From a virus: 24,962 nt of DNA. The stretch is from positions 1 through 24,962 of the IMG/VR virus record IMGVR_UViG_3300032287_001178. One strand, written 5' to 3'. Every line of letters begins with the position of its first letter. Position 1 is the first letter of the stretch. A program made the translations under genes and the position numbers. The notes under the pieces are model-generated. The model saw nothing but the letters and a program-made list of their open reading frames with translations, searched no databases and had not been told where the DNA came from. Positions 2,162 to 24,334 of this stretch are shown piece after piece.

Positions 2162-2997
2162 ATTTTGGTTATTTGATTTTTGTTTCGACAAATGATAAGA
2201 TAGACTATCTTAATCTAGCCTATGCCTTAGCACTTAGTATCAAGAATACTCAGAAAGAGGGCTACGACAAAGTGTGCCTAATGACAGACGATGTTATGGC
2301 TGTGAAAAAATTAAAATCTTCTTGGGTCTTTGATCAAGTAATCGAGATAGATAAATTCCAAGGATGGGATGCTAGATCTTGGATGGATGTTTATAGCCCT
2401 TTTGAACATACAGTTTGTTTAGATTCTGATATGCTGTTTACTAGAGATTATAGTCATTGGATTGAATATTTTATAGAAAACTCAGAATTATATATTGCCA
2501 ATAGCGCATACACTTATAGAGGAGATTTGGTAACCGATGATTATTATCGAAAAACATTTACAAAAAATAAATTACCCAACCTTTACAGTTTCTATACATT
2601 CTTTAAAAAAGACAGTGTGGTAGCCAAGGAGTTTTTTACATTAGCTAGATACATTATTAAAAATCCTGTAGAATTTTCAAATTTATTTTTAACTGAATTA
2701 AAACCTCGAGTAGTAGGCACTGATGAGGCATTCGCATTAGCAGCTAAAATTTTAGATATATCTGATGATATATCCTATGAATTAGATTTTCCAAAAGTAG
2801 TCCATATGAAAGGGATGATACAGGATTTTCCATGGCCTGCCGATGTATGGAGTGATCATATAGGTTTTTATCTCAATAGAAAAGGACAGATAAAAATAGG
2901 AAATTATCAACAACATAATATAGTTCATTATGTAGAAAAAGATAAAATTACACAAGAAGTAATTAACATACTAGAGGAAATAGCATGGAAGAAATAA
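2158..2997 (+). CDS. GT8-like glycosyltransferase (copy B)
   Basis: 279 residues with the same order of elements as copy A: FGYLIFVSTNDKIDY at the start, a strand ending KVCLMTDD (38-45), then VCLDSDMLFTRD (86-97) with the DXD motif D89/D91, and an aromatic segment YSFYTFFKKDS. VVGTDEAFALAAKIL in the second half matches the place where GT8 enzymes carry an acidic acceptor-side motif. It overlaps copy A by ATGA and the next gene by 13 bases. The two copies are diverged enough to act on different acceptors or to add successive sugars, which I infer rather than see. Confidence 0.68.
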   Translation: MNFGYLIFVSTNDKIDYLNLAYALALSIKNTQKEGYDKVCLMTDDVMAVKKLKSSWVFDQVIEIDKFQGWDARSWMDVYSPFEHTVCLDSDMLFTRDYSHWIEYFIENSELYIANSAYTYRGDLVTDDYYRKTFTKNKLPNLYSFYTFFKKDSVVAKEFFTLARYIIKNPVEFSNLFLTELKPRVVGTDEAFALAAKILDISDDISYELDFPKVVHMKGMIQDFPWPADVWSDHIGFYLNRKGQIKIGNYQQHNIVHYVEKDKITQEVINILEEIAWKK

Positions 2998-3578
2998 TTT
3001 TATTTCCTGTAGAATTTTTTGCGGCATTTAATCCCACAACAGGAGCGATAATCGCAGTTGGTCCTAAAGCGGCATTTGAAAATGAAGAGCATAAGATTCC
3101 TATGGATCAAGAAGTTGCTGAACTTATTATCGAAGGTAGAATAAATCTTCATTCTTGTTCTGTGGATATCACAGGCGAGGGCTATGTAATTTCCGAGACT
3201 AGATCACTATACAGAATTGACGATGTTCTACATCGAATAATTGAAATTGAACATGCTGATGTTGATAAGCCCAATGTGTTTTTAACCTATAAGAAAAATT
3301 CATTAACAATAGAATTAACCGAAGAATACGGCGGTACAAAAAAACTAGCTAAAAAATTTCAACCAGTGAAAAAGAAAAAAATTAACTGGTCTGGAAATAC
3401 AGAAATGAATTTTTTAATTACAGATTATAATGATCCTAATTCTTTGTACAAACCGTTTTCTATAAAAATATCAGATCTTGTAGGAAAGAAATTCGTACTT
3501 AAAAATTTAGAACTGCCTACGAAATTTAGTGTATACACTAGACGCCTGTTTAAAAATTATGTAATGGAGATTAAATGA
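2985..3578 (+). CDS. Unknown protein between the glycosyltransferase pairs
   Basis: 197 residues; I do not recognise a family. The first 100 residues include PVEFFAAFNPTTGAIIAVGP and read like a small beta-rich domain. The segment after about residue 105 is Lys-rich (QPVKKKKINW near 126-135), followed by another beta-rich part. There is no signal peptide, membrane segment or cysteine cluster. The start ATG has a good GAGGAAA six bases upstream, inside the end of the previous gene, and the stop overlaps the next ATG (ATGA). The beta-rich make-up could suit a virion or carbohydrate-binding protein made together with the transferases, but this is speculation. Confidence 0.7.
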   Translation: MEEIILFPVEFFAAFNPTTGAIIAVGPKAAFENEEHKIPMDQEVAELIIEGRINLHSCSVDITGEGYVISETRSLYRIDDVLHRIIEIEHADVDKPNVFLTYKKNSLTIELTEEYGGTKKLAKKFQPVKKKKINWSGNTEMNFLITDYNDPNSLYKPFSIKISDLVGKKFVLKNLELPTKFSVYTRRLFKNYVMEIK

Positions 3579-4471
3579 AAATAGTAGAGTTTGATATTAT
3601 TTTTATTAGCTATGATGAACCAAATGCTGATATAAATTACGCAGATTTATGCGATAAAGCACCGTGGGCTAAACGTGTACACGGAGTCAAAGGTAGCGAT
3701 CATGCACATAAAGCTGCTGCAAATCTAAGTGACACTGATTGGTTGATAACCGTTGATGCTGATAATATTGTAGATCCTAAATTCTTTGATTTAGATCTTG
3801 ATATGTCAGATCCAAAGATACAGGTATATGGCTGGTGCGGAAGAAATAAAATCAATGGACTTAGATACGGCAATGGCGGAATTAAAATCTGGAAAAAAGA
3901 TTTTATTCTTAATATGAAAACACACGAAGCCAGCGAAAGTGATCGAGCCCAAGTAGATTTTTGTTGGGAAGATGGGTATAGAAACTTTCCTGTAGTTTAC
4001 AGTGATAGTATTATTACAGGAAGTCCATTCCAAGCATGGCGAGCAGGATTCCGTGAAGGTGTTAAGATGACTCTCAAAGACGGTGTTAAGGTTCCTGCTA
4101 TGGAATTACAAGATCATATTTGGTGGCACAATATACATAGACTTCGTATGTGGTCAACAGTAGGGGCTCACGAGATAAATGGAATCTATGCTGTGCTAGG
4201 GGCTCGTATGGGCACCTGGATGACTAATTGTACAGATTGGAACTATGTTGATGTTAGAGATTTTGAAATTTTAAGAAACATCTATAACGACGAAGTTAAA
4301 TCTATCGAAAATAATAAAGACGCTGTTCTTGAAAGAACAAGCTATTATGGTAATGAAATAAAATATAAGTTAGGATTGGATTGGCCTAACTTCGATGCAC
4401 AACAGAGCAAATATATTTTAGATTTATATGACGAAACAATAAATCTAGGACTAACTTATTTTAGACAATAA
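3575..4471 (+). CDS. GT2-like (GT-A fold) glycosyltransferase, pair member 1
   Basis: 298 residues. The opening FDIIFISYDEPNAD (6-19) and the strand LITVDADNIVDP (57-68), with DXD at D61/D63, are the nucleotide-sugar parts of a GT-A enzyme. RVHGVKGSDHAHKAAAN (34-50) is the conserved link between them. GLRYGNGGIKIWKK sits where GT2-type enzymes have the acceptor-side strands. The next gene repeats the same N-terminal plan, so the two are tandem paralogues. The start has GGAG a few bases upstream and an ATGA overlap. Aromatic and His-rich segments later (HIWWHNIHRLRMW) are not seen in copy 2 and may set the acceptor. Substrate unknown. Confidence 0.68.
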   Translation: MKIVEFDIIFISYDEPNADINYADLCDKAPWAKRVHGVKGSDHAHKAAANLSDTDWLITVDADNIVDPKFFDLDLDMSDPKIQVYGWCGRNKINGLRYGNGGIKIWKKDFILNMKTHEASESDRAQVDFCWEDGYRNFPVVYSDSIITGSPFQAWRAGFREGVKMTLKDGVKVPAMELQDHIWWHNIHRLRMWSTVGAHEINGIYAVLGARMGTWMTNCTDWNYVDVRDFEILRNIYNDEVKSIENNKDAVLERTSYYGNEIKYKLGLDWPNFDAQQSKYILDLYDETINLGLTYFRQ

Positions 4472-5166
4472 TGTACGATATCATTTTTATCAGTTATAAC
4501 GAACCAAATGCAGATGCTAACTTTGAAAAGTTAAAAGCAAGATTTCCTTACGCACATAGAGTCCACGGAATCAAAGGTATACATCAAGCACACATTGCTG
4601 CTGCCAAAAAGGCATTTACAAAAATGTTTTGGGTAGTAGATGCTGACGCCGAAATATTAGACACATTTAATTTTGATCATGAAGTTAGCAAATATGATCT
4701 GGAATGTGTACATGTATGGCGAAGTCGTAATCCTATTAATAATTTAGAATATGGTTATGGCGGAGTTAAGTTGTTACCTAAGAGGTTAACTCAGAATATG
4801 GACACGTCAAAGCCAGATATGACTACTAGTATTAGTTCATTGTTTAAGGCAATGCCAGAAGTTTCAAACATTACAGCATTCAACACAGATCCATTTAATA
4901 CGTGGAAATCAGCATTTAGAGAATGTTGCAAGTTGGCAAGTAAAACTATTGATCGTCAAGACGATATAGAAACACAACAACGATTAGATGTATGGTGTAC
5001 ATTAAATGAATCGGTGCCGTATGGTGCTCATGCCTACCTAGGGGCAATTGCAGGAAAATATTTTGGTTTATTTTGGCAAAATGCACCTAGCGAGTTATTA
5101 AAGATAAACGACTTTGATTGGTTAAAAGAACAATATGAAATGTCAAAGGATAAACTAAATGGATGA
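4471..5166 (+). CDS. GT2-like (GT-A fold) glycosyltransferase, shorter pair member 2
   Basis: 231 residues. YDIIFISYNEPNAD (2-15), RVHGIKGIHQAHIAAAKK (30-47) and FWVVDADAEI (53-62; DXD at D57/D59) match the previous gene almost position for position. LEYGYGGVKLLPKR matches its acceptor strand. It is about 67 residues shorter. The segment FNTWKSAFRECCKLASKT corresponds to FQAWRAGFREGVKMTLKD upstream. It starts at TAATG, one base overlapping the preceding stop, with no clear ribosome binding site, so it probably depends on coupling. A tandem duplication followed by divergence is the simplest explanation. Confidence 0.68.
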   Translation: MYDIIFISYNEPNADANFEKLKARFPYAHRVHGIKGIHQAHIAAAKKAFTKMFWVVDADAEILDTFNFDHEVSKYDLECVHVWRSRNPINNLEYGYGGVKLLPKRLTQNMDTSKPDMTTSISSLFKAMPEVSNITAFNTDPFNTWKSAFRECCKLASKTIDRQDDIETQQRLDVWCTLNESVPYGAHAYLGAIAGKYFGLFWQNAPSELLKINDFDWLKEQYEMSKDKLNG

Positions 5167-6523
5167 TAAGGTAAGGATTAAGAAATTCATTCCTATAATG
5201 AATGAAATCTCTCCTACGTTTTGTCTCGCCAAGTGGCACCACACCACTATATATTTAGGCACAGGTGAAACACACAGTTGTTATCATCCAGCGCCTCATA
5301 AGATTCCCTTAGAAGAAATTGTCATAGACCCAAGCGCACTACATAATACCAAAGAAAAAATCAGCCAACGTGCAGAAATGATGGCAGGTGAAAAACCTGC
5401 AGGCTGTAATTATTGTTGGAACATCGAAGCATTAGGTGAAGATTTTATTTCAGATCGACATGAACGCAATGCCAGCATCTTCACAGAACAACGTCTAGGA
5501 GCTATCAAGGCCGACCCATTAGCTCCTGTCAATCCTCAATATATCGAAGTAAGTTTTGGTAACGAATGTAATTTTAAATGTGGATATTGTCACCCAAAAC
5601 ATAGCAGTGCTTACTACAAAGAAATAAAAGATTTTGGTCCGTATTCGATGGTTAAAAATCATCGTAACGATATTGATTGGTTTGAAATATTTGAAGAAGA
5701 AACTAATCCTTATGTAGAAGCGTGGTGGCGTTGGTGGCCTGAAGTTCGCAAAACATTAACCATACTTCGTATCACAGGTGGCGAACCATTGTTACAATCT
5801 AGTACATGGAAACTGTTAGACGACTTAGTAGTAAATCCGTTACCTAATTTAGAATTAAACATCAACACAAACTTTGGAGTTAAACCTATTTTAATTGATA
5901 GACTTGTAGAAAAAGTAAATGCGTTGATTGCCAACGGATGTATTAAAGATTTTAAAATTTTTACTAGTATGGATACATGGGGTGCACCTGCAGAATATAT
6001 TCGAACAGGTCTAGACTTAACTGTGTGGGAACGCAATTTAGATACATATTTGACTAAAACACAGTTGCCAATTACTTTCATGATTACGTTTAATATCTTA
6101 ACTGTAACAAATTTTCAAAGCCTATTAGAAAAGATCCTAGAATGGCGTATAAAATACAATGGTAATAATCAAAACAAATGGCAGCGTGTGAGATTTGATA
6201 CTCCATTTTTAAAAGAGCCCTTGCAGTACGACATGAATATATTACCTAAAGACGAATTTATGCCTTACATGAAAAGTCATCTAGACTTCATTCTAGCCAA
6301 TTTAGACGATAAAAACCGTAGTAAATTCAACGACTTAGAGTATGCTAAATTTGAAAGAGTTGTAAAATACATGGAATCAGCTATCTATACCCCAGAGAAG
6401 CTAAAAGAAGGCAAACGAGACTTCTTTAATTGGTTTACCGAATATGATCGCAGAAGAGGTACTGATTTTATAAGAACCTTTCCAAAATTAGAAAATTTTT
6501 ATTTTGAGTGTGCGCAAGAATGA
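5159..6523 (+). CDS. Radical SAM enzyme with N-terminal twitch/SPASM-like domain
   Basis: 454 residues. The radical-SAM cluster motif CNFKCGYC (C137, C141, C144) binds the catalytic 4Fe-4S cluster, and TGGEPLL (206-212) is the family's SAM-binding GGE motif. Ahead of this, residues 20-90 carry FCLAKW, a Cys at 41 and GCNYCW (C83, C86), with the spacing style of a SPASM/twitch auxiliary-cluster domain. That domain is normally C-terminal. NCBI has a family with the N-terminal arrangement (N_Twi_rSAM), known mainly from phages and bacteria, whose function is unclear. The start is supported by AAGGA eight bases upstream; it overlaps the previous gene by 8 bases. Neighbouring transferases suggest action on a sugar or on a glycosylated peptide, but this is inference. 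Confidence 0.85.
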   Translation: MDDKVRIKKFIPIMNEISPTFCLAKWHHTTIYLGTGETHSCYHPAPHKIPLEEIVIDPSALHNTKEKISQRAEMMAGEKPAGCNYCWNIEALGEDFISDRHERNASIFTEQRLGAIKADPLAPVNPQYIEVSFGNECNFKCGYCHPKHSSAYYKEIKDFGPYSMVKNHRNDIDWFEIFEEETNPYVEAWWRWWPEVRKTLTILRITGGEPLLQSSTWKLLDDLVVNPLPNLELNINTNFGVKPILIDRLVEKVNALIANGCIKDFKIFTSMDTWGAPAEYIRTGLDLTVWERNLDTYLTKTQLPITFMITFNILTVTNFQSLLEKILEWRIKYNGNNQNKWQRVRFDTPFLKEPLQYDMNILPKDEFMPYMKSHLDFILANLDDKNRSKFNDLEYAKFERVVKYMESAIYTPEKLKEGKRDFFNWFTEYDRRRGTDFIRTFPKLENFYFECAQE

Positions 6524-7782
6524 ATTTAGTATTTGATGATCCTGTAAATTTTTTAAATTATTCGAATTGTTTGGATATTGTTTCATCTGGAGCGAGACGA
6601 TTCGCTCCTTCGCCTATGGCTGTGACATTATTGCATCGAACACAAATGGCAACAGGCTGCTCGGTTGAAAACAAACCACGCCCGTATATTATTCCTTCGG
6701 GCGTCAATCATAGTCCTAATGATTGGGCTGTTTATAATGGACAGTCGGTTTTTGATTCTATGAATAAAAAGCAGATTAATGATATAAGAGATGGCAAAGC
6801 TATGGTGTTATTTGACCAATCATTAGAAGGATATCATACATCGTGGTTGTGGGATTATTTTCATAAAGAATGCGCTAAACATAATATTTCGCCAGAAGCA
6901 ATAATCTATGTTACTGGAAATTCCTTATGTGCCGAACAATATGACAAGTGGGCCAAAGACAATTCTATTGAACATAGAATAACAACCATATCATACGTAC
7001 ACTTTGAAGCAGATGTTTATAATAATTCAGTCTGGACTTCTTTGAATATGTCCGTTGACAAACATCTAGAATATAAAAAAAATAATGAAATTAAAGATTT
7101 CAACTGCCTACAGAAACGTTTGAGAGCCCATAGGATTTGGTTTTATATTAAAATGTTTGAAGAGAATTTATTAGTAAATGGATTAGTAAGTATGAATCCA
7201 TTTAATACCGATAACGTGTGTTTTGAAAATCAAACAATCAACAAAGAAAGAGCCGACTCTGCGAATTCCGTTTTGCCATTAATGGTCCATGGAAAAGCAA
7301 ATAACGAATTTGATGACGGGTTTTATATACGTCGAATTCAAGATCAAACTTGTTTAGATTCTTGGTGTACTGTTATATCAGAAGCTTCTTTTTCCGATCT
7401 TGATCAACAGCTATTCTTAAGTGAAAAGATTTTTAAACCGATTGTCTGTTTCCATCCGTTCATCATATTAGGGAATAGAGGCAGTTTAAAAGAACTACAT
7501 AAGATGGGCTATAAAACATTTGATGGCTGGATCGATGAAAGCTATGACGATTTGCCAACATTTGAAAGATATGATGCCATAGTTGAATCAATAAAAAAGA
7601 TAATTGCTATCGAAGATAAATTTGCATGGTTCGAATCTATGCGCCCTATCTTAGATCATAATTATGAAAATTTAAAAAAGAATTCAACAGCAATAAATTC
7701 AGCGTTTGTCATCGCTGAAAGAACTTATAAGAAATATTTTAAATTAGGGAAATATAAAGATGCATCCAGGTATTCAAATTAA
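6520..7782 (+). CDS. Probable glycosyltransferase (unclassified marine-phage type)
   Basis: 420 residues from the ATG at 6520, which forms an ATGA overlap with the previous stop. A GTG start at 6508 would add four residues and is less likely. Near the C-terminus it has SEKIFKPIVCFHPFIILGNRGSL-type sequence (shown in part), followed by MGYKTFDGWIDESYDD. This E-K-x-F-K-P-I / H-P-F-I-x-x-G pattern is like the donor-binding half of GT-B enzymes such as GT10 fucosyltransferases, and I recall it in unannotated marine-phage proteins. The N-terminal half is divergent, with PYIIPSGVNH and AMVLFDQSLEG. It lies between the radical-SAM and SGNH genes. The transferase call is moderate; the fold needs checking. 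Confidence 0.55.
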   Translation: MNLVFDDPVNFLNYSNCLDIVSSGARRFAPSPMAVTLLHRTQMATGCSVENKPRPYIIPSGVNHSPNDWAVYNGQSVFDSMNKKQINDIRDGKAMVLFDQSLEGYHTSWLWDYFHKECAKHNISPEAIIYVTGNSLCAEQYDKWAKDNSIEHRITTISYVHFEADVYNNSVWTSLNMSVDKHLEYKKNNEIKDFNCLQKRLRAHRIWFYIKMFEENLLVNGLVSMNPFNTDNVCFENQTINKERADSANSVLPLMVHGKANNEFDDGFYIRRIQDQTCLDSWCTVISEASFSDLDQQLFLSEKIFKPIVCFHPFIILGNRGSLKELHKMGYKTFDGWIDESYDDLPTFERYDAIVESIKKIIAIEDKFAWFESMRPILDHNYENLKKNSTAINSAFVIAERTYKKYFKLGKYKDASRYSN

Positions 7783-8632
7783 ACCAGTAACTGCCGATTC
7801 CAAATTGATTATTGGTCTTGGCGATAGTTTTACACAAGGCGTAGGTAGCTGGAGTAAAGAAACATATAAAAAACATAAAGGCTTTATTGATCCTTTAAAC
7901 ATTCCAATTAATTTGGAAATCGATATGTACGAACACAGTTGGGTATCTCAGATGTGTAAAAATCATTTACCCAACTATACTCCTATGAATTTTGGCATAA
8001 TGGGTAGAGGCAATCGTGCAGCTCTTAAAGATTTATATTTTTATCCTAATTTAAATTTAGAAAAAGCATCTGAAGTGATAGTTGTTTATATGCTGAGCGG
8101 AATAGAAAGATTTGATTTTGTTAGTAGAGAATTTAATCGATTCCATCATTTTTTTGCTATGTGGCCAAATCCGGGAGATAAAAATTCAACACATAGACAA
8201 TTGTGGGAATCTTATGCTAAAGATATTTGGAGTGAGAAATTCGTCTGTTTGGAAGCAATTCTAAATATCAAAGAAGCTGAAATGATCTGTAAAGCGAACG
8301 GTTGGCACCTAGTGATAGCCAGTGCATTTGATCAAAGAATTACCAAAGAACGATTTTTAAAAGAAATCGGTAATCAAGATACAGAAATTATTGATTCTGT
8401 TCCTTGGGATAAATTTCTATATCCTCAAGGCTGCAATAGTTTTATGCAACTGTTGTTAAGATATGACGGTAGAGAAGAACTAGCCGACGGTGCATTCTAT
8501 GATTATTATTCTAAATTAAAAGAACCTACAAAATACATTACTAACTGTATGCACCCAACTAGAGAAGGTTATAGAATAATGGCTGAGGAAATATTTAAAT
8601 TTATAAAAGAAAAAGGCTATATTAAAGAATAG
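7760..8632 (+). CDS. SGNH/GDSL-type hydrolase 1
   Basis: 290 residues. Block I is GLGDSFTQG (19-27) with the nucleophile Ser23. Block III is MGRGNR (81-86) with the oxyanion residue Asn85. Block V is CMHPTREGY (263-271) with His265. In the usual D-x-x-H of block V the Asp position is Asn262 here, so the catalytic set may be a Ser-His dyad. SGNH enzymes of this type remove acetyl or other ester groups, often from glycans, which suits the preceding transferases. The ATG at 7760 follows AGGGA. The gene overlaps the previous one by 23 bases and ends in the terminator hairpin at 8612-8637. There is no signal peptide, so it acts in the infected cell or on virions. Confidence 0.75.
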   Translation: MHPGIQIKPVTADSKLIIGLGDSFTQGVGSWSKETYKKHKGFIDPLNIPINLEIDMYEHSWVSQMCKNHLPNYTPMNFGIMGRGNRAALKDLYFYPNLNLEKASEVIVVYMLSGIERFDFVSREFNRFHHFFAMWPNPGDKNSTHRQLWESYAKDIWSEKFVCLEAILNIKEAEMICKANGWHLVIASAFDQRITKERFLKEIGNQDTEIIDSVPWDKFLYPQGCNSFMQLLLRYDGREELADGAFYDYYSKLKEPTKYITNCMHPTREGYRIMAEEIFKFIKEKGYIKE

Positions 8633-12493: not shown

Positions 12494-12930
12494 TGGTTCT
12501 TTCTTTTAACTTCGTTAATATCAATAATTCCAGTGTTAATTGGCCCACCAAAGTCACCATCGACCACAACATTGGCACAAAGTTCACGGAACCAACGGTC
12601 TACAATTTCTTCATCTTTGTCACCATCTTCACCGTAACCTTCTTGCTTTAATTTTAACACAAACGGTTCATTCCAGTCAAGTTCAAAGAATCCATTTCGA
12701 ATATTGTCTTTGTTTACATGAGTTTCTAAAACACCAACCCAGGGCTCTTTGCGTCTTGTGGCACGTTCTTTTGGTGACAGTTTCGCAAGCTCTTCTTTTT
12801 CTTGAGCAGCTTTGGATGCCTGTTCTGCTGCTTCTAATCTTTTATTAGCTTCTGCTAAATCTTGTTCTGCTTTGGCAATAGACTCTTCTAGTTTGTCTAG
12901 ACCCATTACCTTTTTAATAAATTTTTTCAT
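12490..12930 (-). CDS. Conserved phage protein with N-terminal coiled coil
   Basis: 146 residues from the ATG at 12930, which makes a TAATG overlap with the queE stop and has GGGGAA just upstream. A start at 12942 would add four residues. Residues 10-55 form a charged coiled coil (LEESIAKAEQDLAEANKRLE and on). A conserved globular part follows, with RRKEPWVGVLETHVN, NGFFELDWNEPFVL and VDRWFRELCANVV. I recall this domain as a common unknown of T4-like cyanophages. It is tied to both queE and rnh by overlaps. Confidence 0.8.
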   Translation of the reverse strand: MKKFIKKVMGLDKLEESIAKAEQDLAEANKRLEAAEQASKAAQEKEELAKLSPKERATRRKEPWVGVLETHVNKDNIRNGFFELDWNEPFVLKLKQEGYGEDGDKDEEIVDRWFRELCANVVVDGDFGGPINTGIIDINEVKRKNQ

Positions 12931-13781
12931 TAAGTTCCCCATTCATTTTTAAACAATGGCACTTGCAATCTATCGCTGTAGCGTAATCCATTCTTCATAG
13001 CAAATTCTGCAACACGACGATTATTTAATGCGTAGACTGATTCGACACCGCCCACTGGCATTAGATATATCGGACCAGTAAATCCTTCTCCACGATATAT
13101 GTCTACAGCTTCTAATGCTTCTTCTGCATCATCTTCTGTAGCAACAACAAACTTTAGATATGTGTAACCAATTTCTTCGTACTCACGAACAATATCAGGA
13201 CGAATAGCTTCATCTGGATGTTCTCCCGAGCAACTTAATTTAGCACTTACACTAAATGTAACCTGACGCCACATGTCTTCTGTGTCACGCCAATTTGCAA
13301 GATATTCTTTAAATTCTTCTGTTAGCTTTTGAGTGCCATTTGTTTCAAATGTAATTTCTTTTAAGCCTGCCATTTTAGGATGACTTAACAAGTCTGGATA
13401 AGCACGTTGCCAACCTAGTAATGGCTCACCGCCTGTGATAACTAGATGCTCGTCCTGCCATTCGTTAAATGGAAGGATTTCACAGATACGATCTGCAATA
13501 GCATCTGTTGTAAGCATAGGACTTAGATCTTTAAAACGAGGATCCCAACTAGCGTAGCTATCACAGCCTGTGCTAACAAGTGGAAGTTCTTCATACGACT
13601 TAAACTCTGCAATACGTTGTGCAATTGATTCAACTTCTGCACTTAGTTCGCCTTTAGGCATGCCAAAGCCAGCACACTTAAAGTTACAGCCAAATGTGCG
13701 CAAGAAAACAGAAGGAACACCCATATAGCGTCCTTCACCTTGTATGCTGTAAAACAGCTCTGCAATTTTAATTTTACTCAT
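12930..13781 (-). CDS. queE: QueE-like 7-carboxy-7-deazaguanine synthase (radical SAM)
   Basis: 283 residues. QueE converts 6-carboxytetrahydropterin to 7-carboxy-7-deazaguanine (CDG), the third step of the 7-deazaguanine pathway. The opening FYSIQGEGRYMGVPSVFLRT (10-29) and GCNFKC (31-36) are QueE signatures, and ITGGEPLLGW (115-124) is the SAM-binding motif. The cluster cysteines are unusual: C32 and C36 are present, but the usual third Cys two residues later is absent. The residues aligning with the normal C-D-T-x-Y-x-W appear at TGCDSYASWD (71-80), giving CX3CX36C with C73. An insertion inside the cluster loop explains this. The start lies 6 bases after the upstream stop. FolE and QueD-like genes at 17.7-20.2 kb complete the steps to CDG. 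Confidence 0.85.
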   Translation of the reverse strand: MSKIKIAELFYSIQGEGRYMGVPSVFLRTFGCNFKCAGFGMPKGELSAEVESIAQRIAEFKSYEELPLVSTGCDSYASWDPRFKDLSPMLTTDAIADRICEILPFNEWQDEHLVITGGEPLLGWQRAYPDLLSHPKMAGLKEITFETNGTQKLTEEFKEYLANWRDTEDMWRQVTFSVSAKLSCSGEHPDEAIRPDIVREYEEIGYTYLKFVVATEDDAEEALEAVDIYRGEGFTGPIYLMPVGGVESVYALNNRRVAEFAMKNGLRYSDRLQVPLFKNEWGT

Positions 13782-14382: not shown

Positions 14383-15203
14383 TAAATAGTCCTTAACCAA
14401 GGAATAAACTGAGTAGCAATTAAATGATGATATGCTTTATCATAGTGTTCGTTATCGGGTAAAAGATATTTAGAATGATCAATCATTCTTCCTGAGAAAA
14501 ATTTTTCTACAGTCTTTGGTGCTATTTTTGTACATTTTAATTTGCCATAGTATTCAAAGTTACTGGGATATTTTAATCTTTCTGTAAAATGAAAAAGATA
14601 TAACTTAGCACCGTGATCATTACAGATATTATCCCAAGTATATACACAATTTAAAAAATCACGTTTTTCTGTATAGGTATTTAGATCAAAGAATAATTTT
14701 ATTTCCATAAAAGTATTTTTTCTAAGATCAGGATTAATGAGACCTTTTTCTGGAGTAAGTTCAAACATAGGACCTTGTTTGTAATCATCCCAAATAGGTT
14801 TCTGAAACAATTGGATTCTTTCATTGGCCATTGTTGTATCGGCATACAGATGTACCATATCTGTAGACTTAGACTTATCAAACACTGTGAAATTATCTAC
14901 TGCAATTGGTTCATCCAATGCGCCCGGGTCGTATGCTATAGTGAAACGATTCAGTGCAGATAGGCATAAGAAAACTTCGTCAATTTCATTGTATCTCTCA
15001 AACATGGTTTTTAACCAATCAGTGTATACACGATTATTAACGCCAGCCATGGCATAAACAGCCACAGGTTTTTTATTTTCTTTACTATAGATATCACCGT
15101 AATTGTTATCGTTCCAATAGCTATAACTACCTAGTCCGACTTTGCCAGGAACTGCTACATAACCACAGGTATGACTATCTCCGATAAACAATGTTCTTGA
15201 CAT
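14382..15203 (-). CDS. SGNH/GDSL-like hydrolase 2
   Basis: 273 residues from the ATG at 15203 (TAATG overlap, AGGAAG five bases upstream; a GTG at 15209 is possible). Block I is FIGDSHTCGY (6-15) with Ser10. Block III is MAGVNNR (52-58) with Asn56 or Asn57. Block V is PDNEHYDKAY (249-258), which fits D-x-x-H with D250 and H253. Unlike the + strand SGNH protein, it keeps the acid. There is no signal peptide. It lies beside a HIT protein and a phosphoribosyltransferase and not beside transferases, so the substrate may differ. Lipase, esterase and deacetylase roles are all possible. Confidence 0.7.
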   Translation of the reverse strand: MSRTLFIGDSHTCGYVAVPGKVGLGSYSYWNDNNYGDIYSKENKKPVAVYAMAGVNNRVYTDWLKTMFERYNEIDEVFLCLSALNRFTIAYDPGALDEPIAVDNFTVFDKSKSTDMVHLYADTTMANERIQLFQKPIWDDYKQGPMFELTPEKGLINPDLRKNTFMEIKLFFDLNTYTEKRDFLNCVYTWDNICNDHGAKLYLFHFTERLKYPSNFEYYGKLKCTKIAPKTVEKFFSGRMIDHSKYLLPDNEHYDKAYHHLIATQFIPWLRTI

Positions 15204-15589
15204 TACCACTTCCTATAATTGCCACGTTCTGGAATAACGTGTCTTACGCCGCCTGTGGGATCTTCCATATCACCTTTGCGTCTAGGAATCAAATGAACAT
15301 GCGGCCAACCAACTGTTTGTCCAGCAGTAGCACCATAATTAAATCCTACATTAAAGCCGTCACACTCTCCAGATTCTACCATACGCATACCATCTCTTAC
15401 AGCATCTTCGAATGCATCCATAAGAACATGTAAGGTATTATATTTAGGCACAAATAACAAGTGACCTGGAGTTACAGGATATTTGTCTTTGAATACCTTT
15501 ACGTGAAAATCTTCTTCTAAAAGATCATCCCACGGTGCTGTTGAATCTTCGATACAAGGAGGTTGACCCTCCATAACTATTTCTCTCAT
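15203..15589 (-). CDS. HIT-family nucleotide hydrolase/transferase
   Basis: 128 residues, normal for HIT proteins, which cleave nucleotide phosphoanhydride or phosphoramidate bonds (Ap4A, AMP-linked molecules). Residues 37-50 (YPVTPGHLLFVPKY) are the conserved strand pair, and GQTVGWPHVHLIPRRKGD (90-107) is the HIT loop. In the usual H-x-H-x-H triad the first His is Trp95, while H97 and the nucleophile-position H99 remain. GGVRHVIPERGNY at the end is Fhit-like. The start is in an ATGA overlap. It probably acts on nucleotides, alongside the phosphoribosyltransferase two genes upstream. Confidence 0.82.
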   Translation of the reverse strand: MREIVMEGQPPCIEDSTAPWDDLLEEDFHVKVFKDKYPVTPGHLLFVPKYNTLHVLMDAFEDAVRDGMRMVESGECDGFNVGFNYGATAGQTVGWPHVHLIPRRKGDMEDPTGGVRHVIPERGNYRKW

Positions 15590-15813
15590 CTTTTATATTC
15601 CTTTCTTTCTGAAGGAAGCGCATCTTCTCGAATGACAAATTCGCGTCCACCTAAGCTGCCAACAAATGCTCTTGTACGTTCCATATAAGCTAAACGCATC
15701 TTGATTGTTTGAAATGCAACTTCTAAAAATGCTTTAGGCTTATAACCTAGAACATGCATATCAAAGTCTTTGCCTGCATCTGTACAGTGTACTTTTATTT
15801 TTGAATCAATCAT
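15586..15813 (-). CDS. Small conserved phage protein between HIT and phosphoribosyltransferase genes
   Basis: 75 residues, basic. KIKVHCTDAGKDFDMHVLGY, then a helix (KAFLEVAFQTIKMRLAYMER) and FVGSLGGREFVIRED. No known family is recognised, though similar small proteins occur in marine phages. ATGA overlaps on both sides tie it tightly to its neighbours. Confidence 0.74.
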   Translation of the reverse strand: MIDSKIKVHCTDAGKDFDMHVLGYKPKAFLEVAFQTIKMRLAYMERTRAFVGSLGGREFVIREDALPSERKEYKR

Positions 15814-16397
15814 TTAGTCCACCAATCTTCCCAAGGGAAATCTACCCATACATCATTTTCTGCTTTATTGATTTCCCTGCCAACATAATCCATTTTAACA
15901 TCGCATTTACTAGCGAGGTTATCGATTAGAACTGCAAATCGAACATTGCTGTTCCATACCTCTTCCCAGGCAGGATCATCTGGAAAGCAACCACTAGGCC
16001 AATCTTTCATAATCCAATTAATAGTTGCCCCAGTGTCATTAATGTCGTCTACTATGAGAATATTTTTGAAATTGGCTCCTTCTTCTAGTAAACTGCTGGC
16101 AGCATCTAAAATAGCACCGATGTCATTCTCGTCGTCTACAAATCTTTCATTGGTACGAGGTCCTAGAGCATCTTCTGCCATCCATAAATTGCTTTCAGAT
16201 TCCAAACCATCACGCAGTTGTACTTTTAAAGTTTCGCAGGGAATATTAAAATAATGACTGATCATTACAGCAGGGGTCAAACCTCCACGAGTAAGTCCTA
16301 CAACATAATCTGGCTTCCAACCGCTGATAATAATGTCTCGACAGATTTTACTAACTAATCCGTTAAGCTCTGTTTGATTGATTATGAGCTTGTTCAT
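15810..16397 (-). CDS. Type I phosphoribosyltransferase
   Basis: 195 residues. The PRPP-binding signature NILIVDDINDTGATINW (112-128) has the adjacent Asp pair and T-G-A-T loop of the type I family. VGLTRGGLTPAVM (33-45) carries the R-G-G pyrophosphate loop. GWKPDYVVG and the size resemble xanthine-guanine or hypoxanthine transferases, so salvage of a purine base is likely. In this genome it could also supply or recycle guanine released by the transglycosylase; that is inference. AGGAGAG lies four bases before the ATG. The start overlaps the cupin gene by an unusually long 35 bases. Confidence 0.85.
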   Translation of the reverse strand: MNKLIINQTELNGLVSKICRDIIISGWKPDYVVGLTRGGLTPAVMISHYFNIPCETLKVQLRDGLESESNLWMAEDALGPRTNERFVDDENDIGAILDAASSLLEEGANFKNILIVDDINDTGATINWIMKDWPSGCFPDDPAWEEVWNSNVRFAVLIDNLASKCDVKMDYVGREINKAENDVWVDFPWEDWWTK

Positions 16398-16839
16398 ATC
16401 TCTCCTTTAGATACTGTTCATTTTGTATCCATTTATTGTTAACTAAAAATCCCCAATCACGTTTGTGAGGTCCTGGCATAAACAAAGTCCATGCAGTTAC
16501 ACCTGGCTTTAATTCAATACGGTGATAACTGTTAGGAGTACAAATGCGGAAATGGCCGGGTCCACGCCATTTACGAATCTCGCAATTTTTTGTACCATCG
16601 GAATTAAATTGTGGAATCCATTCATAATAACCACCTCGTAAAATTAATGTAGCATAGGGCCAGGGATGATCGTGAACATCATCTGGATCACCTTTTAAGA
16701 ATTTGTGCAAGAACACATTAAAGGGAAAACGCTTTCTATCTTTTAAAAACAGATAGTAGCGTTCTAGATAAGGTTCATTATGTATGCGATCAAAGATGAT
16801 TCGCTTACGTCCTAATTTTTCTAACAGTTTAAGGAACAT
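16363..16839 (-). CDS. Cupin-fold protein
   Basis: 158 residues. VHDHPWPYATLILRGGYYEW (55-74) is the first cupin motif, with metal ligands H56, H58 and E73. NSYHRIEL (103-110), with H106, is the second. A single-domain cupin with a full 3-His/1-Glu set could bind iron or another metal and act as a dioxygenase, isomerase or nucleotide-sugar epimerase. I cannot choose among these. It overlaps the downstream phosphoribosyltransferase gene by 35 bases and the upstream glycosylase gene by 11. The start has AAGAGA upstream. Confidence 0.75.
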   Translation of the reverse strand: MFLKLLEKLGRKRIIFDRIHNEPYLERYYLFLKDRKRFPFNVFLHKFLKGDPDDVHDHPWPYATLILRGGYYEWIPQFNSDGTKNCEIRKWRGPGHFRICTPNSYHRIELKPGVTAWTLFMPGPHKRDWGFLVNNKWIQNEQYLKERYEQAHNQSNRA

Positions 16840-17660: not shown

Positions 17661-18425
17661 TTATCTTGGCGCAAACTCTTGTTGCATTTTAATGTTGTCA
17701 AAGAACTCTTTCTTTGTACCCGGATCATCTTTAAATGCACCTTTAAGCACAGTAGTCTGCGTCAATGAACTATGTGCCATAATACCTCGATTCTCGCAAC
17801 AACCATGTGTTGCTTGAATATACACACCTAAGTCTTGTGCGCCTGTGGCTTTTTGGATTTCCCTAGCAATGTCATTGCAAAGTTCCTCCTGGAGAGTACC
17901 TCGACGGGCACACCACTGAGCGATCCTTGTATACTTGCTAAGTCCGATGAGTTTCTGAGCTGCAATAAGACCAATATAAGCAACGCCAACAACGGGTTGG
18001 TGATGATGGCTACACATACTGCGAAGCTCACTACGCACAACCAACATACCTTCGTAACGGTCCGCCGAATCATTTGGAAACGCTGTAGCGTCTGGTGCTG
18101 GGACATATCTGCCCTCCATAATTTCATTAAAATACATTTTAGCAAGACGTTTTGCTGTGCCACGACTGTTAGGATCGTTTTCACGATCAATCAACAGCGT
18201 GTCTAATACTAGTTCAAATGCTTCAGTGGCTTCTTTAATTAGGATTTCCTTATTTGCCTCACTAACATATTCGCTAATGTTATCTCCGGCCCAAAAGCGT
18301 TTCTTGTCACGTTTCATCTTAAAGCGAATAGCGTCTGCAAGATTACATTCTTCGTAGCCTTTGTCGCTCATATCGTCTGCACCTTTAAGTGCGCTTTGTA
18401 AATCTTCTGATGTAAATGTTGTCAA
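17661..18425 (-). CDS. folE: GTP cyclohydrolase I
   Basis: 254 residues. FolE converts GTP to 7,8-dihydroneopterin triphosphate, the first step of both folate and 7-deazaguanine synthesis. SMCSHHHQPVVGVAYIG (136-152) and THGCCENRGI (206-215) carry the zinc ligands C138, H141 and C209 and the catalytic His region. GLSKYTRIAQWCARR (161-175) is the conserved dimer-contact strand. The N-terminus is extended by about 25-30 residues relative to bacterial FolE. The chosen TTG start has GGAG seven bases upstream; an ATG at 18371 is a fallback. With queE and a queD-like gene in the window, the job is most likely DNA base modification rather than folate supply. Confidence 0.93.
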   Translation of the reverse strand: MTTFTSEDLQSALKGADDMSDKGYEECNLADAIRFKMKRDKKRFWAGDNISEYVSEANKEILIKEATEAFELVLDTLLIDRENDPNSRGTAKRLAKMYFNEIMEGRYVPAPDATAFPNDSADRYEGMLVVRSELRSMCSHHHQPVVGVAYIGLIAAQKLIGLSKYTRIAQWCARRGTLQEELCNDIAREIQKATGAQDLGVYIQATHGCCENRGIMAHSSLTQTTVLKGAFKDDPGTKKEFFDNIKMQQEFAPR

Positions 18426-18464: not shown

Positions 18465-19538
18465 TTATTTTAACTTCTCTAGCAAAGGTTTGCAACTAAA
18501 AAAGTTTTCTTTTAAGAAATCCACCTGTTTATTTAGGCTAGGCAACCGAGTTTTGTAATTATCCATATGCTCGATTATTTTACGGCATAAGTCTGGGCGA
18601 TACACAGTATAAGCATCATAACTTTCAGTCCATTTGCTAGGATACTTAAAAGTGTCTAATGCCATTTCGCTATAACTAAGTCTATCTGGTACCATTGGAA
18701 TAGCATCGACTATTGCACCTTCAAACCAACTAATACCTAGTGTTTCTTGCAAGTTAGCACTGAATACCATTTTTGCTTCACCTAGTAAATTATGATATTC
18801 ATTCTTAGTCAGTTGTTGTTCTTGACATACAATAAATTCATATTGTGGTAAGTGTTCTTTTAAGTCTCGGAAGATTTCAACTTGCTTCTCGGGCGCAATG
18901 CGATGGGGAAACAAGATAAGATCTCTTTTTGGCATACCCTTATACATTACTAAAGTATCGCCCATATATTCCATAGGCCAACCTGTCAATACAATTTTAC
19001 CTTCGTCGATGAATTCTTTAATTGTATCTTCGAAAGTTTCATCTAACAAGTTTTTGCAGAACATATCAATATGAAACTGTGTGGCAAAGTAGTTATGATC
19101 AATCGCAGCAAAGAAACTCTTTTCTGCGTGACGCACCCATGGAGCATCACCAATAAGACGACCTAGGAAATCTTGAGGATCATAACTGCCAGCATGCCAT
19201 AGTGCGTGAATAGTTACAGGGATCTGTAACAGCTCACTCATGTACTTTAAGTTTATAATGCCCGGATGCCAAGCATCAGTAAAAATAAAGTGGTCGCCGG
19301 GATGAACGGATCCACCACAAAATAAACGGCCCATCTGCTCAACTTGACTAGCTTTATATATGTTAGTTCCACCAAAATTGAGAAAAGCCCCAGGAGTGGT
19401 AGCATTCGGAATATCCGTAGGTCCGGAAATAATTTGAACATCATGTCCTGCCTTTCGCAGAAGTGCAGGCACATGGGACTTCCATTGTCCCGTGTACCTG
19501 GTTTCAACTGCTTCTAAATCAACGAGAAAAATTGTCAT
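18465..19538 (-). CDS. GT-B (GT4-type) glycosyltransferase
   Basis: 357 residues from the ATG at 19538, which lies 20 bases inside the previous gene; a TTG at 19553 would add five. The C-terminal half has LILFPHRIAPEKQVEIF (207-223) and QETLGISWFEGAIVDAIPMV (264-283), which holds the EX7E pattern (E265, E273) typical of GT4 donor sites. PDRLSYSEM follows. The N-terminal half has FIFTDAWHPGI and LWHAGSYDPQDFLG. I recall similar proteins in T4-like cyanophages. It sits between folE and the queD-like gene. The general order E-x7-E then Pro-rich then S/Y-x-E is also seen in the queuosine mannosyltransferase QTMAN (GTDC1), a weak parallel. Acceptor unknown: DNA base, virion or host glycan. Confidence 0.78.
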   Translation of the reverse strand: MTIFLVDLEAVETRYTGQWKSHVPALLRKAGHDVQIISGPTDIPNATTPGAFLNFGGTNIYKASQVEQMGRLFCGGSVHPGDHFIFTDAWHPGIINLKYMSELLQIPVTIHALWHAGSYDPQDFLGRLIGDAPWVRHAEKSFFAAIDHNYFATQFHIDMFCKNLLDETFEDTIKEFIDEGKIVLTGWPMEYMGDTLVMYKGMPKRDLILFPHRIAPEKQVEIFRDLKEHLPQYEFIVCQEQQLTKNEYHNLLGEAKMVFSANLQETLGISWFEGAIVDAIPMVPDRLSYSEMALDTFKYPSKWTESYDAYTVYRPDLCRKIIEHMDNYKTRLPSLNKQVDFLKENFFSCKPLLEKLK

Positions 19539-19764
19539 TACGTCTTTTTTCAAACCTTGGCTTATTACCTTGGTATGGTCTCCTTGGCCGCTTACTATTT
19601 AGGTAAGCCTGATAAATTGCGGAATCTTTGCGATAAAGATCTGCAGGGTTAAAGTCACATAGTTCAATGCGACAATAGTTGTGATATGACTCAAGGTCAT
19701 CAAAGATCCGAACAACGTCGGGGCGATTTTCAAAATAGGAATAATCCTTGTAGTTCTTAGCCAT
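19519..19764 (-). CDS. Small basic conserved phage protein
   Basis: 81 residues. The first part is aromatic and acidic (YKDYSYFENRPDVVRIFDDL, YHNYCRIELCDFNPADLY). The last 25 residues are strongly basic (SKRPRRPYQGNKPRFEKRRN) and would bind nucleic acid or another acidic surface. GAGG precedes the ATG. It lies between the queD-like and glycosyltransferase genes. Similar proteins occur in T4-like cyanophages by recall; function unknown. Confidence 0.75.
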   Translation of the reverse strand: MAKNYKDYSYFENRPDVVRIFDDLESYHNYCRIELCDFNPADLYRKDSAIYQAYLNSKRPRRPYQGNKPRFEKRRNDNFSR

Positions 19765-19776
19765 TGCAGCCTCTTG

Positions 19777-20178
19777 TTAATATTTGATAAATGAACCATT
19801 TTCTCCGTCTTCGGAGACCTCAATCCAAACCTCACGATCTGGATACTTTGCATGAATCTGAGCATATAAATCATCGCTCATCATCTCACAACTTTTATAA
19901 TCTAGCGACAATACACCTTCGTTGCTAGAATACAGTTTTTCGAGCCATCGCTTGAATTGTATAAATTCCACATCTCTGTCATTGTGGGTGACACTAAGCC
20001 ATACCCTAAAATGAAAAATATGGCGATGAGGATTAGCCAAAAACGAAACATCATATTCATCTCCTGTTGCTAGGTTGGGATCTGTAGCCGCTGCTGGATA
20101 TTTATGAATACCTTCCTTACGGAAAGTGACCCAGATCATTTTATTAGGACGCCAGTCATGTCTAAGAGTATTACTCAC
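19777..20178 (-). CDS. queD: QueD-like T-fold protein (6-carboxytetrahydropterin synthase family)
   Basis: 133 residues from a GTG start with AAGGA seven bases upstream; an ATG at residue 14 is possible. QueD converts dihydroneopterin triphosphate to 6-carboxytetrahydropterin. KEGIHKYPAA (21-30), PHRHIFHFRVWLSV (50-63) and RDVEFIQFKRWLE (68-80) follow the T-fold order. H25, H51 and H53 match the three zinc-binding His of the family (H in the F-x-A-A-H region, then H-x-H). SCEMMSDDL (96-104) and VSEDGENG (121-128) match the later acidic substrate-binding positions. The usual catalytic Cys a few residues before H-x-H is missing, so chemistry may differ. The placement between folE and dpdA-like genes supports the pathway role. 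Confidence 0.72.
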   Translation of the reverse strand: MSNTLRHDWRPNKMIWVTFRKEGIHKYPAAATDPNLATGDEYDVSFLANPHRHIFHFRVWLSVTHNDRDVEFIQFKRWLEKLYSSNEGVLSLDYKSCEMMSDDLYAQIHAKYPDREVWIEVSEDGENGSFIKY

Positions 20179-20398: not shown

Positions 20399-20775
20399 TA
20401 GCGTAGTTGCTCCATGGTTATAATTTTGCTGAGTTCTTCACCAAGGTCTTTATCCTCAGTGACTACGTGTAGACTATGACGATTTTCGTCGCTCTTACGG
20501 TCATACTTGGTAGTTTCGATAATAGTACCACCGCTGGCACCATAGATATTTAGGCTGAAGCTGTTAGATGATAACTCTGGTCCGCTTTCGTCGACAGCAA
20601 TAGAATCTGCATAGTCGTCTAGATCGTTCATCAACCAGTTGCGAAGTCTTTGTTTGAATGTTAATTTCATAGGTTCGGTTTCTATGTACTGTTTTTTGCG
20701 TTTAATTTGATTTGCACTAACGATTCCTCTCCTACGTCGAGAACTTGTCGGTGCTACTGCGTATCCACCACTCAT
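20398..20775 (-). CDS. Conserved T4-like marine phage protein
   Basis: 125 residues. The N-terminus has the basic stretch TSSRRRRGIVSANQIKRKKQ. Then come MKLTFKQRLRNWLMND (36-51), IAVDESGPELSSNSFSL and IYGASGGTIIETTKYDRKSD, and the end is VVTEDKDLGEELSKIITMEQ. The FKQRLRNWL segment and the E-D-K-D-L-G end are features I recall in a widespread unknown family of T4-like cyanophages, whose members often start at the internal Met 36. That Met is at 20670. Here the ATG at 20775 in an ATGA overlap is preferred. Confidence 0.75.
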   Translation of the reverse strand: MSGGYAVAPTSSRRRRGIVSANQIKRKKQYIETEPMKLTFKQRLRNWLMNDLDDYADSIAVDESGPELSSNSFSLNIYGASGGTIIETTKYDRKSDENRHSLHVVTEDKDLGEELSKIITMEQLR

Positions 20776-21305
20776 CTGATAATCTCATCTTGACCATATT
20801 GATCCCAACTAGTAAACTTATTTCTATCTAGTAGGTCATGGAGGTTATGGCACCACACTCCAGGATTGGTTGCTTTAAAGTCTTTATCATCTATCTTGAT
20901 TGTAGCATTATATCCTAGCTGTTGTAAATAGGGCAATTTAACCGAAATCTGCGGAATAAATTGGCGTTTCTCAACAAGGCCGCTTTCAAGTAGTCCTTCT
21001 ACTTGTGCAACATCTAAATCTAATGTACACCAAAATTCATCTTCAGAGTCAAGACAAACATAAATCATATCTTCCCATAAGCGCCAGTTGACAGCATCAT
21101 TGACTTCTAATTTAGGAAAACTTTGATTAGCACCAAAATAGATATGCGTACATTGACTATTGCGAGCAAGTTCCATAATAACATAAGGATCTTGTACTCC
21201 GACAACAAACAATGTCTTCATTCCATAGGCAGGAGTGCGTTCAATCTCTGTACCTACAAAGTAAGTGATTGCTTCTTCAACACCAGTGGCATAGTTTCTT
21301 TTCAC
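20772..21305 (-). CDS. Conserved unknown phage protein
   Basis: 177 residues. MKTLFVVGVQDPYVIMELAR (29-48) and THIYFGANQSFP (53-64) look like a Rossmann-type beta-alpha pair. MIYVCLDSEDEFWCTLDLDV and QFIPQISVKLPYLQQLGYNA form the middle, ending with GVWCHNLHDLLDRNKF. I recall homologues in T4-like cyanophages with no assigned function. It lies three genes upstream of the queD-like gene with overlaps on both sides (ATGA), so a part in the deazaguanine pathway is possible but unproven. Confidence 0.76.
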   Translation of the reverse strand: MKRNYATGVEEAITYFVGTEIERTPAYGMKTLFVVGVQDPYVIMELARNSQCTHIYFGANQSFPKLEVNDAVNWRLWEDMIYVCLDSEDEFWCTLDLDVAQVEGLLESGLVEKRQFIPQISVKLPYLQQLGYNATIKIDDKDFKATNPGVWCHNLHDLLDRNKFTSWDQYGQDEIIR

Positions 21306-22302: not shown

Positions 22303-22713
22303 TTATACCTCCTCAAAAAGATCGGAAAACATTCGATTAGTATATGTGTATCTTTTTTTATTGTCGCCAAATATTTTACTTTTTTTATTATGACAATTAG
22401 CACAAAGGATTTTTAAATTATCTGGGGAAGTGTTGAGCTTATCACCGTCGTGATGATCGATAGTTAAACTTTCGGTTAGGGGATCTCTACAGAACCATCC
22501 TAGATAACCTTCTTTGTTTTGGCATCCAATGGATTGCATCCACTCATCAACTTCGTGCCTTAGTACATTAAGGTGTGTGTTACAGAAAGTTTTCCATTTC
22601 CAAATGGGACTTCCGTTTTTCTTTACATATGATTTGTGATACCCTACCTGATTATAACAAGTAGGTAGACTGCATTTTGGAGCATGTAACTTTGCAGTTG
22701 ATTGCGATCTCAT
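22303..22713 (-). CDS. HNH endonuclease
   Basis: 136 residues. SLTIDHHDGDKLNTSPDNLK (82-101) with D86-H87-H88 and N99, then ILCANCHNKKS (102-112) with C104, C107 and H108, form the HNH beta-beta-alpha-metal site. A further Cys/His set in the N-terminal part (C14, C19, C44, H47) may hold a zinc ion. Free-standing HNH enzymes in phages are often homing endonucleases that cut phages lacking the insertion. This one sits immediately after the dpdA-like gene (10 bases), a plausible homing position. A DNA-processing or restriction role is the alternative. Confidence 0.85.
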   Translation of the reverse strand: MRSQSTAKLHAPKCSLPTCYNQVGYHKSYVKKNGSPIWKWKTFCNTHLNVLRHEVDEWMQSIGCQNKEGYLGWFCRDPLTESLTIDHHDGDKLNTSPDNLKILCANCHNKKSKIFGDNKKRYTYTNRMFSDLFEEV

Positions 22714-22723
22714 GGTGTTCTTT

Positions 22724-24334
22724 CTATTCTGCGACTAAACTATTCAACTCGTCGTCGTCTGGGTTTGAAAAATCAATTTCGTTTGACTTTTTGCCATCTT
22801 CAAAATCAAATAAATTACCAAATGTATTTGCTGCAGGACCACCCTGTAGTCGAGCACCTTCCAATGATTTCAAGAACTGCCCAGCAGTTTCAATCATGTC
22901 AAATGCTTCTGCTTTAGTTTTAGTATTAAATAATTCTTCAACAAATGTAGAAAAATATAGAATTTTGTTTGGAACCCAATCACTAAATTCAATTTCTTTC
23001 TTACCTTCAACGCTTTTTGTTCTCCAGTCTGGTTTGAATCTAGCACATTCAATGTCCATTAACTGTTGAGCACGTTGTACTGCCTTAATATGACATTCAA
23101 CATTGTGCCCCATCATCAGTGCATAACTGAAACTATCCCAACTAGTTTTATTTGGAATCTTTCCTAGTTTATTAAGTTTTGGAACTGTATGATAGTGTTC
23201 TGGATTTAAGTGATTAAATTTAACATCGCCGAGTTCTTCGTCGGTTTTACGAACACCGTAATCATAATATGCAATGTCACCCATAGTTAAACGACTTGCA
23301 AATTCACTTTCAAACGGAAACGGAATGTCATGACGTCCTGAAAGACCTTTATTATCTGGAGCCTTGTCCATAATAACACTCCAACGTTTGTTGGTATGTT
23401 GTGCGTTTGTGTAAACAAGACCGTGAGCAGTAGCAATAAACGGTGATGCACAGTCAAAACTAATTGTAAGTTCTGTATTAATATGTTTGCGAATCTGACG
23501 TTGTATTTGTGTTAGGTAACATGACCAGTCGAGTTGTGCTGTACCCAAGAAGTGGATCCAGTTCTTACCTGTAAGCATGCCTTCATCACGCATTGTCATT
23601 AGACGCTTGAGCGTAATGTCCATCTTACACATATTAGCACCACCAAATGCCCACCCTTCTGCTTCTTTGCCAGCGTATGGGCCTTTGGGATCACTAAACT
23701 CTTTAACACCATTATACCATTTCTCAGCAGTATCCCAGTCTGAACCCTGTAATACATTTAACCACTTAGTCTGTCCTAACCGATTATCTAAGAAATATTT
23801 GTTATTAAAGGCAGTTTTTTCTAAACAATCTTCAAAAGATTTCAAACCTGTCTTTGGACTGTGTATATGATCACAGGCCCAAGTCGGAACGTCCAGCATC
23901 ATAGACCAATCAGCAGTTAATTCTAACCACTCTAAAATCTTTTTGCGAGTTTTGTTGGCTTCTGGACCTTCAAAGTTCAACCAATCAAACTTAAGAACAC
24001 CTTTACCAATCTGGTAGCCACCGGAGTCGCCTAAAATCATCGTCTGTCCACGATCACGTTGTTGGATCATAGACTCTTGTTCCATAGATTTTTCTAAATC
24101 AAGCTGTGCATGACCTGCTGAATACAAAGCATACTTGTAGGTAAAGTATCCTTGATCTGCATTTAAGAAGTTCATACCTTCAATGCCTCGATCAAATCCT
24201 GCAGGAATGCGTTCTTTAGAAACAAATTCTTCTAGTCGTTGTTTTGCTACATAAGTTGAATAAAAAGAACTGATTGCTGGCAGATACACAGCATAGTCCT
24301 TTTGTAATGGTGTTAGGTTAACTGGTTGTTTCAT
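22724..24334 (-). CDS. dpdA: DpdA-like DNA transglycosylase (tRNA-guanine transglycosylase superfamily)
   Basis: 536 residues. ILGDSGGYQIGKG (100-112) carries the D-S-G-G-(F/Y)-Q signature, whose Asp (D103) is the general acid/base of the family. NVLQGSDW (193-200) and GWAFGGANM (227-235) match the substrate-pocket glycine strands. SFDCASPFIATAHG (292-305) matches the F-D-C-x-x-P segment with the nucleophile Asp (D294). The C-x-C-x2-C zinc site of bacterial TGT is not seen. DpdA enzymes exchange guanine in DNA for a 7-deazaguanine. With FolE, QueD-like and QueE in the same operon direction, I assign a DNA-modifying role. A tRNA role is less likely, because the zinc site is absent and length is above that of bacterial TGT (about 375). 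The first 17 bases overlap the previous gene. Confidence 0.83.
   Translation of the reverse strand: MKQPVNLTPLQKDYAVYLPAISSFYSTYVAKQRLEEFVSKERIPAGFDRGIEGMNFLNADQGYFTYKYALYSAGHAQLDLEKSMEQESMIQQRDRGQTMILGDSGGYQIGKGVLKFDWLNFEGPEANKTRKKILEWLELTADWSMMLDVPTWACDHIHSPKTGLKSFEDCLEKTAFNNKYFLDNRLGQTKWLNVLQGSDWDTAEKWYNGVKEFSDPKGPYAGKEAEGWAFGGANMCKMDITLKRLMTMRDEGMLTGKNWIHFLGTAQLDWSCYLTQIQRQIRKHINTELTISFDCASPFIATAHGLVYTNAQHTNKRWSVIMDKAPDNKGLSGRHDIPFPFESEFASRLTMGDIAYYDYGVRKTDEELGDVKFNHLNPEHYHTVPKLNKLGKIPNKTSWDSFSYALMMGHNVECHIKAVQRAQQLMDIECARFKPDWRTKSVEGKKEIEFSDWVPNKILYFSTFVEELFNTKTKAEAFDMIETAGQFLKSLEGARLQGGPAANTFGNLFDFEDGKKSNEIDFSNPDDDELNSLVAE

Follow-up and report, generated by a model that had tools for sequence, protein, structure and literature searches.

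DpdA enzymes are established together with 7-deazaguanine DNA (PMC6884629), and dPreQ0 occurs in the DNA of phage nt-1, which encodes a DpdA2 (PMC6884629). A deazaguanine synthesis and incorporation system was predicted in the jumbo phages PA5oct and Motura by Iyer et al. (2021, PMC7824862). The gene analysed here lies on a 25-kb fragment of a jumbo or large phage, hereafter the window (the whole 24,962 nucleotides of IMG/VR record IMGVR_UViG_3300032287_001178, positions 1 to 24,962), and its 536-residue product was unannotated. DpdA3 and DpdA4 subfamilies were reportedly defined in a 2023 study; the protein was compared with DpdA1, DpdA2 and TGT. From its sequence and predicted fold it is read, with a probability of about 0.83, as a zinc-less DpdA-type DNA transglycosylase, and it would form a subfamily of its own. 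The features discussed are collected in Table 1.

Table 1. Window positions of the dpdA-type gene, its key codons and the conserved genes around it.
Feature	Position	Strand	Evidence
dpdA-type transglycosylase gene (predicted)	22724..24334	(-)	536 aa, ATG start; TGT fold without zinc cluster; AlphaFold2, PDB structure matches, DpdA2 profile link
D103 codon (DSGGYQ)	24026..24028	(-)	155/155 invariant; aligns with E. coli TGT D89 and nt-1 DpdA2 D76
D148 codon (LDVP), putative base recognition	23891..23893	(-)	155/155 invariant; aligns with TGT D143 (FDECTP) and DpdA2 D112
H261 codon (HFLG)	23552..23554	(-)	155/155 invariant; aligns with 9g DpdA H196 and nt-1 H235
D294 codon (FDCASP), presumed nucleophile	23453..23455	(-)	155/155 invariant; aligns with TGT D264 and DpdA2 D266
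FolE, GTP cyclohydrolase I, first 7-deazaguanine step	17661..18425	(-)	phrog_2197 E 3e-44; NCBIfam FolE models below curated cut-off
QueE, 7-carboxy-7-deazaguanine synthase, radical SAM	12930..13781	(-)	phrog_2076 E 1e-54; NCBIfam QueE models below curated cut-off
GT4-like glycosyltransferase	18465..19553	(-)	34/38 loci; AlphaFold2 pLDDT 88.5; GT-B matches Z up to 25.8
Purine-type phosphoribosyltransferase	15810..16397	(-)	26/38 loci; PF00156 E 1.3e-12; xanthine phosphoribosyltransferase model E 1e-7, below cut-off
Uncharacterised protein near dpdA	20772..21305	(-)	33/38 loci; no library match
Uncharacterised phrog_17812 protein	19777..20178	(-)	32/38 loci

The original prediction described a divergent DpdA, longer than bacterial TGT, with both catalytic signatures intact and no visible C-x-C-x2-C cluster, and each of these points held. 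In the translated open reading frame, DSGGYQ starts at D103 and D294 lies within FDCASP; both aspartates, together with D148 and H261, were invariant in 155/155 relatives. E. coli TGT has 375 aa. CxCx2C was absent from the protein and from all 155 extracted relatives, as were the shorter motifs CxC and CxxC. The family, DpdA1, DpdA2, E. coli TGT and an HVTV-1 protein were placed in one alignment of 24 sequences, in which D103 stood opposite TGT D89 and D294 opposite TGT D264 in 24/24, and D148 opposite TGT D143 in 23/24. The profile alignment of the family with DpdA2 also paired D103 and D294 with DpdA2 D76 and D266. At the positions aligned with the three TGT zinc cysteines the family has unrelated residues, and the protein lacks the canonical zinc site of tRNA TGT (CxCx2C plus His).

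Two histidines were considered as markers. H410, kept in 154/155 relatives and part of a conserved HN pair, is at most a possible relic of the zinc histidine of E. coli TGT (H333, in TIHNL), with which sequence alignment did not pair it. H261, where E. coli TGT has Tyr, was rejected as a hallmark of DNA-type enzymes; archaeal tRNA TGT also has His there (VHLFG, 1iq8). According to a 2019 paper (PMC6884629), DpdA2 lacks the histidine that is conserved in DpdA (H196 of 9g). Contrary to that paper, nt-1 H235 (locus L086, 5913-7304) aligned with 9g H196 and was invariant in nine DpdA2 sequences.

Scans of Pfam, PHROGs, NCBIfam and PADLOC with the 536-residue protein gave no meaningful match, and PDB sequences searched with phmmer and with a profile gave none either. 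The TGT model PF01702 did not match it at E up to 10, and the same model worked in all 14 control genomes. A structure was predicted by AlphaFold2 from 27 diverse relatives (pLDDT 86.3, pTM 0.85), with low confidence only in the C-terminal tail, residues 495-536. Its best PDB match by VIA-align was T. maritima TGT (Z 20.0; 305 residues at 4.5 A, covering model residues 8-460), and the best 50 PDB structure matches were all TGTs. Foldseek matched TGT at E 4.8e-8. The original prediction was to fall if the fold were not a TIM barrel; the predicted fold is a TIM barrel of the TGT type. In the model, D103 ends the strand 99-103 and D294 is near the end of the strand 290-295, positions consistent with the C-terminal rim at which TGT has its pocket; taken with the alignment, they would put the two aspartates in that pocket. 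This barrel, with the catalytic and base-binding aspartates, places the protein in the TGT superfamily. It resembles bacterial TGT in fold (Z about 19-20) and in having the DSGG, FD, QGS, GG and FDC motifs in identical order, and differs in length, in the CxCx2C-H zinc site and in escaping PF01702; about 15% of structurally aligned residues are identical.

Within a viral structure library, the best matches were A0A2I7SB39, several unnamed phage proteins, the Achromobacter phage Motura TGT and nt-1 DpdA2 (the last at Foldseek E 5.7e-10). A0A2I7SB39 has 596 aa, the same length as the homologue in Vibrio phage 2.275.O. The likeness of the Motura enzyme to the protein is only structural.

BLASTP of the protein against nt-1 DpdA2 and against 9g DpdA1 returned no significant match. 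The Vibrio 2.275.O homologue matched DpdA2 weakly by BLAST (E 8e-4), and profile-profile comparison of the family with DpdA2 gave probability 92 and E 6.2e-7, which points to remote kinship. The family profile found no credible match in the nt-1, 9g, HVTV-1 or CP220 genomes, the last two examined with DpdA3 and DpdA4 in view; a CP220 match at E 0.11 fell within the gene of an annotated prohead scaffold protein and was discarded. In the tree each group lay on one side of a branch, with support of 86/88 for the family, 100/98 for DpdA2 and 100/100 for DpdA1, under long-branch warnings. The phylogeny called for by the original prediction thus put the three on separate branches and left the deep forks unresolved. 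BLAST, the family profile and the tree set the proposed subgroup of phage DpdA apart from DpdA1, and make it a probably separate group from its remote relative DpdA2.

At least 584 related IMG/VR stretches were found in one scan, and at least 594 matches when a four-sequence alignment was used to scan more widely. Outside IMG/VR the family includes PA5oct-like, Phosso and Vibrio 2.275.O jumbo phages. The homologue is 43% identical in PA5oct (EST35_0316) and ten near-identical P. aeruginosa records, 30% in Sinorhizobium phage Phosso and 31% in Vibrio phage 2.275.O; among the phage records listed, all carry the label "hypothetical protein". Against four relatives dN/dS was 0.045-0.093, an approximate range as synonymous distances were about 1 or above, and it suggests strong purifying selection. 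The open reading frame is more than a chance one because of the 584 related stretches, this selection and the invariant residues.

Genes for 7-deazaguanine synthesis accompany the family, as expected of a DpdA in the broad sense. QueE was identified in 13/14 and FolE in 13/14 of the family records first searched. QueD was not found in the window, a 25-kb fragment in which its absence says little; it was present in PA5oct, Phosso, Vibrio 2.275.O and many large contigs, and was not found in some other large contigs. Vibrio 2.275.O was the only record in which QueF was found, and the only one of 25 family records with a strong QueC. There (locus L084, 14907-21299) the full pathway stands beside the dpdA homologue, whose neighbours encode QueF, a PF02592-type transporter, QueC, an aminohydrolase, FolE, QueE and QueD; the gene adjoining dpdA weakly resembles an amidoligase. 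PA5oct has two nearby QueD-like PTPS genes (locus L124, 9207-9725 and 11502-11972), only the first annotated QueD; the second may do something else within the pathway.

Since the PA5oct/freshwater branch has no clear QueC and QueF, CDG (7-carboxy-7-deazaguanine) is the last base that such a phage would make alone, as it is for PA5oct and Phosso by their gene content, and CDG or a CDG derivative is predicted to be the likeliest inserted base in that branch. A base preference of its own, also part of the original prediction, stays a prediction, as a host QueC could convert CDG. QueC genes are present in hosts such as P. aeruginosa. With the host enzyme completing the phage pathway, preQ0 or a preQ0 derivative would be inserted and no special preference for CDG would be involved, an alternative given nearly even odds: within the family, Vibrio 2.275.O has genes for both QueC and QueF, and weak QueC-family matches in three contigs leave preQ0 possible for those. 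One of them, a 278-residue PP-loop protein of the QueC family whose tail carries CxxCxxC, on contig G001 (locus L091, 1480-2316), lies away from dpdA, adjoins radical-SAM, SGNH-like and dehydrogenase-like genes, and could be QueC or a repurposed relative. The G006 matches that were examined resemble other PP-loop proteins. Against preQ0, no QueC match was obtained in the complete PA5oct and Phosso genomes or in 11 further contigs, all of which keep FolE and QueE. A CDG product had also been raised already for a phage without QueC, Mycobacterium phage Bipper, in which QueC is the only gene missing (Hutinet et al., PMC6884629). Both dCDG and dDG are said to have been reported in phage DNA in a 2023 paper.

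The protein probably exchanges bases in phage DNA in the manner of DpdA, replacing G with a 7-deazaguanine and so protecting the DNA from host nucleases; DNA as substrate, the identity of the base and the protection are all inferred, and the residue roles are taken by analogy from TGT. The TGT-like barrel would bind a G in phage DNA, and D294 would attack C1' to give a covalent enzyme-DNA intermediate from which guanine leaves. The guanine-like edge of the incoming 7-deazaguanine would be read by D103 and D148, and the new base would be joined to the same deoxyribose with assistance from D103. FolE, QueD and QueE would supply that base, the phage-encoded path ending at CDG in this branch, and the resulting DNA would be poorly recognised by host nucleases or bacterial defences. 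The zinc-less DpdA identity would account for the presence of FolE, QueD and QueE in these phages.

The enzyme could instead act on tRNA or another RNA, as a phage TGT that boosts a queuosine-like modification. Such a role would suit the TGT fold and the H261 shared with archaeal tRNA TGT (1iq8), and some phages that have preQ0 genes without DpdA have been proposed to raise queuosine in the tRNA of their hosts (PMC6884629). It is judged unlikely: every member has lost the motif of the zinc subdomain, the closest characterised group is DpdA2, which is linked to modified DNA, and no tRNA gene was found in the window. Reuse of the TGT fold for another reaction, such as conjugation of deazaguanine to protein as reported for CBASS Cap10 (PMC11996544), is highly improbable, given that the catalytic and base-recognition positions are all kept, the gene sits among pathway genes on phage genomes and no PADLOC model matches.

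Gene neighbours were counted at 38 dpdA loci, which are not independent and of which some are truncated. QueE was present in 31/38 and FolE in 25/38. The glycosyltransferase gene overlaps dpdA by one base in PA5oct. The glycosyltransferase model is GT-B, with sucrose-phosphate synthase (Z 25.8) and BshA (Z 24.8) as best matches and many GT4 enzymes scoring alike; kinship to the queuosine mannosyltransferase GTDC1 was considered and had no Pfam support. If DNA base exchange takes place, the glycosyltransferase may decorate the inserted base, and the phosphoribosyltransferase could recycle the guanine freed by exchange. In a conceivable but unlikely joint scheme, CDG or a derivative put in place by DpdA would be glycosylated by the GT4-like enzyme, and the phosphoribosyltransferase would return the released guanine to GMP, feeding GTP to FolE; the product would be a glycosylated deazaguanine in DNA. 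Glycosylated deazaguanine occurs in tRNA (queuosine) and is not known in DNA.

Other genes of the window were recorded as follows. An HNH endonuclease gene (22303-22713, minus strand) lies directly downstream of dpdA and looks like a recent homing insertion, as just 1/38 loci has a homologue of it close to dpdA. A gene matching a cysteine dioxygenase PHROG (phrog_4786; 16363-16839, minus strand) and one for a HIT-domain protein (15203-15589, minus strand) lie between FolE and QueE, each in 17/38 loci. On the plus strand, a run of genes at 1298-8632 includes, by eye, candidate glycosyltransferases, a candidate radical SAM protein (CxxxCxxC, about 5159-6523) and an SGNH-like hydrolase (7760-8632), and is possibly a separate modification or surface-glycan cluster.

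An abundant enzyme family of jumbo phages has been labelled "hypothetical" and has escaped Pfam, PHROGs, NCBIfam and PDB sequence searches. Modified DNA is predicted in PA5oct, Callisto and Paride, P. aeruginosa phages that laboratories already have. The family offers a natural test of the purpose of the TGT zinc subdomain, and, with QueC missing, the question of which base is inserted can be put to a direct test. As far as checked, what is new here is the assignment of this abundant unannotated family to the TGT fold, apart from DpdA1 and DpdA2, together with its consistent loss of zinc, its mostly QueC-less pathway and its conserved glycosyltransferase and phosphoribosyltransferase partners.

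Among described enzymes, the protein is like DpdA2 (nt-1 YP_008125322, and KVP40-like phages) in being a phage TGT-like enzyme without zinc cysteines, and its D103/D148/H261/D294 align with D76/D112/H235/D266 of nt-1. It is unlike DpdA2 in its separate tree branch and lack of a significant BLAST match, and nt-1 has QueC. With DpdA1 of Enterobacteria phage 9g (317 aa) it shares the aligned Asp residues and the H196 position; the two are on separate branches and no sequence or profile similarity of 9g DpdA1 to the family was detected. In its available part, the account in PMC7824862 describes neither this protein nor the zinc loss or the partners. In PA5oct, one of the two phages with the system predicted by Iyer et al. 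2021, EST35_0316 is the 43%-identical homologue and the genome also carries FolE, QueD and QueE.
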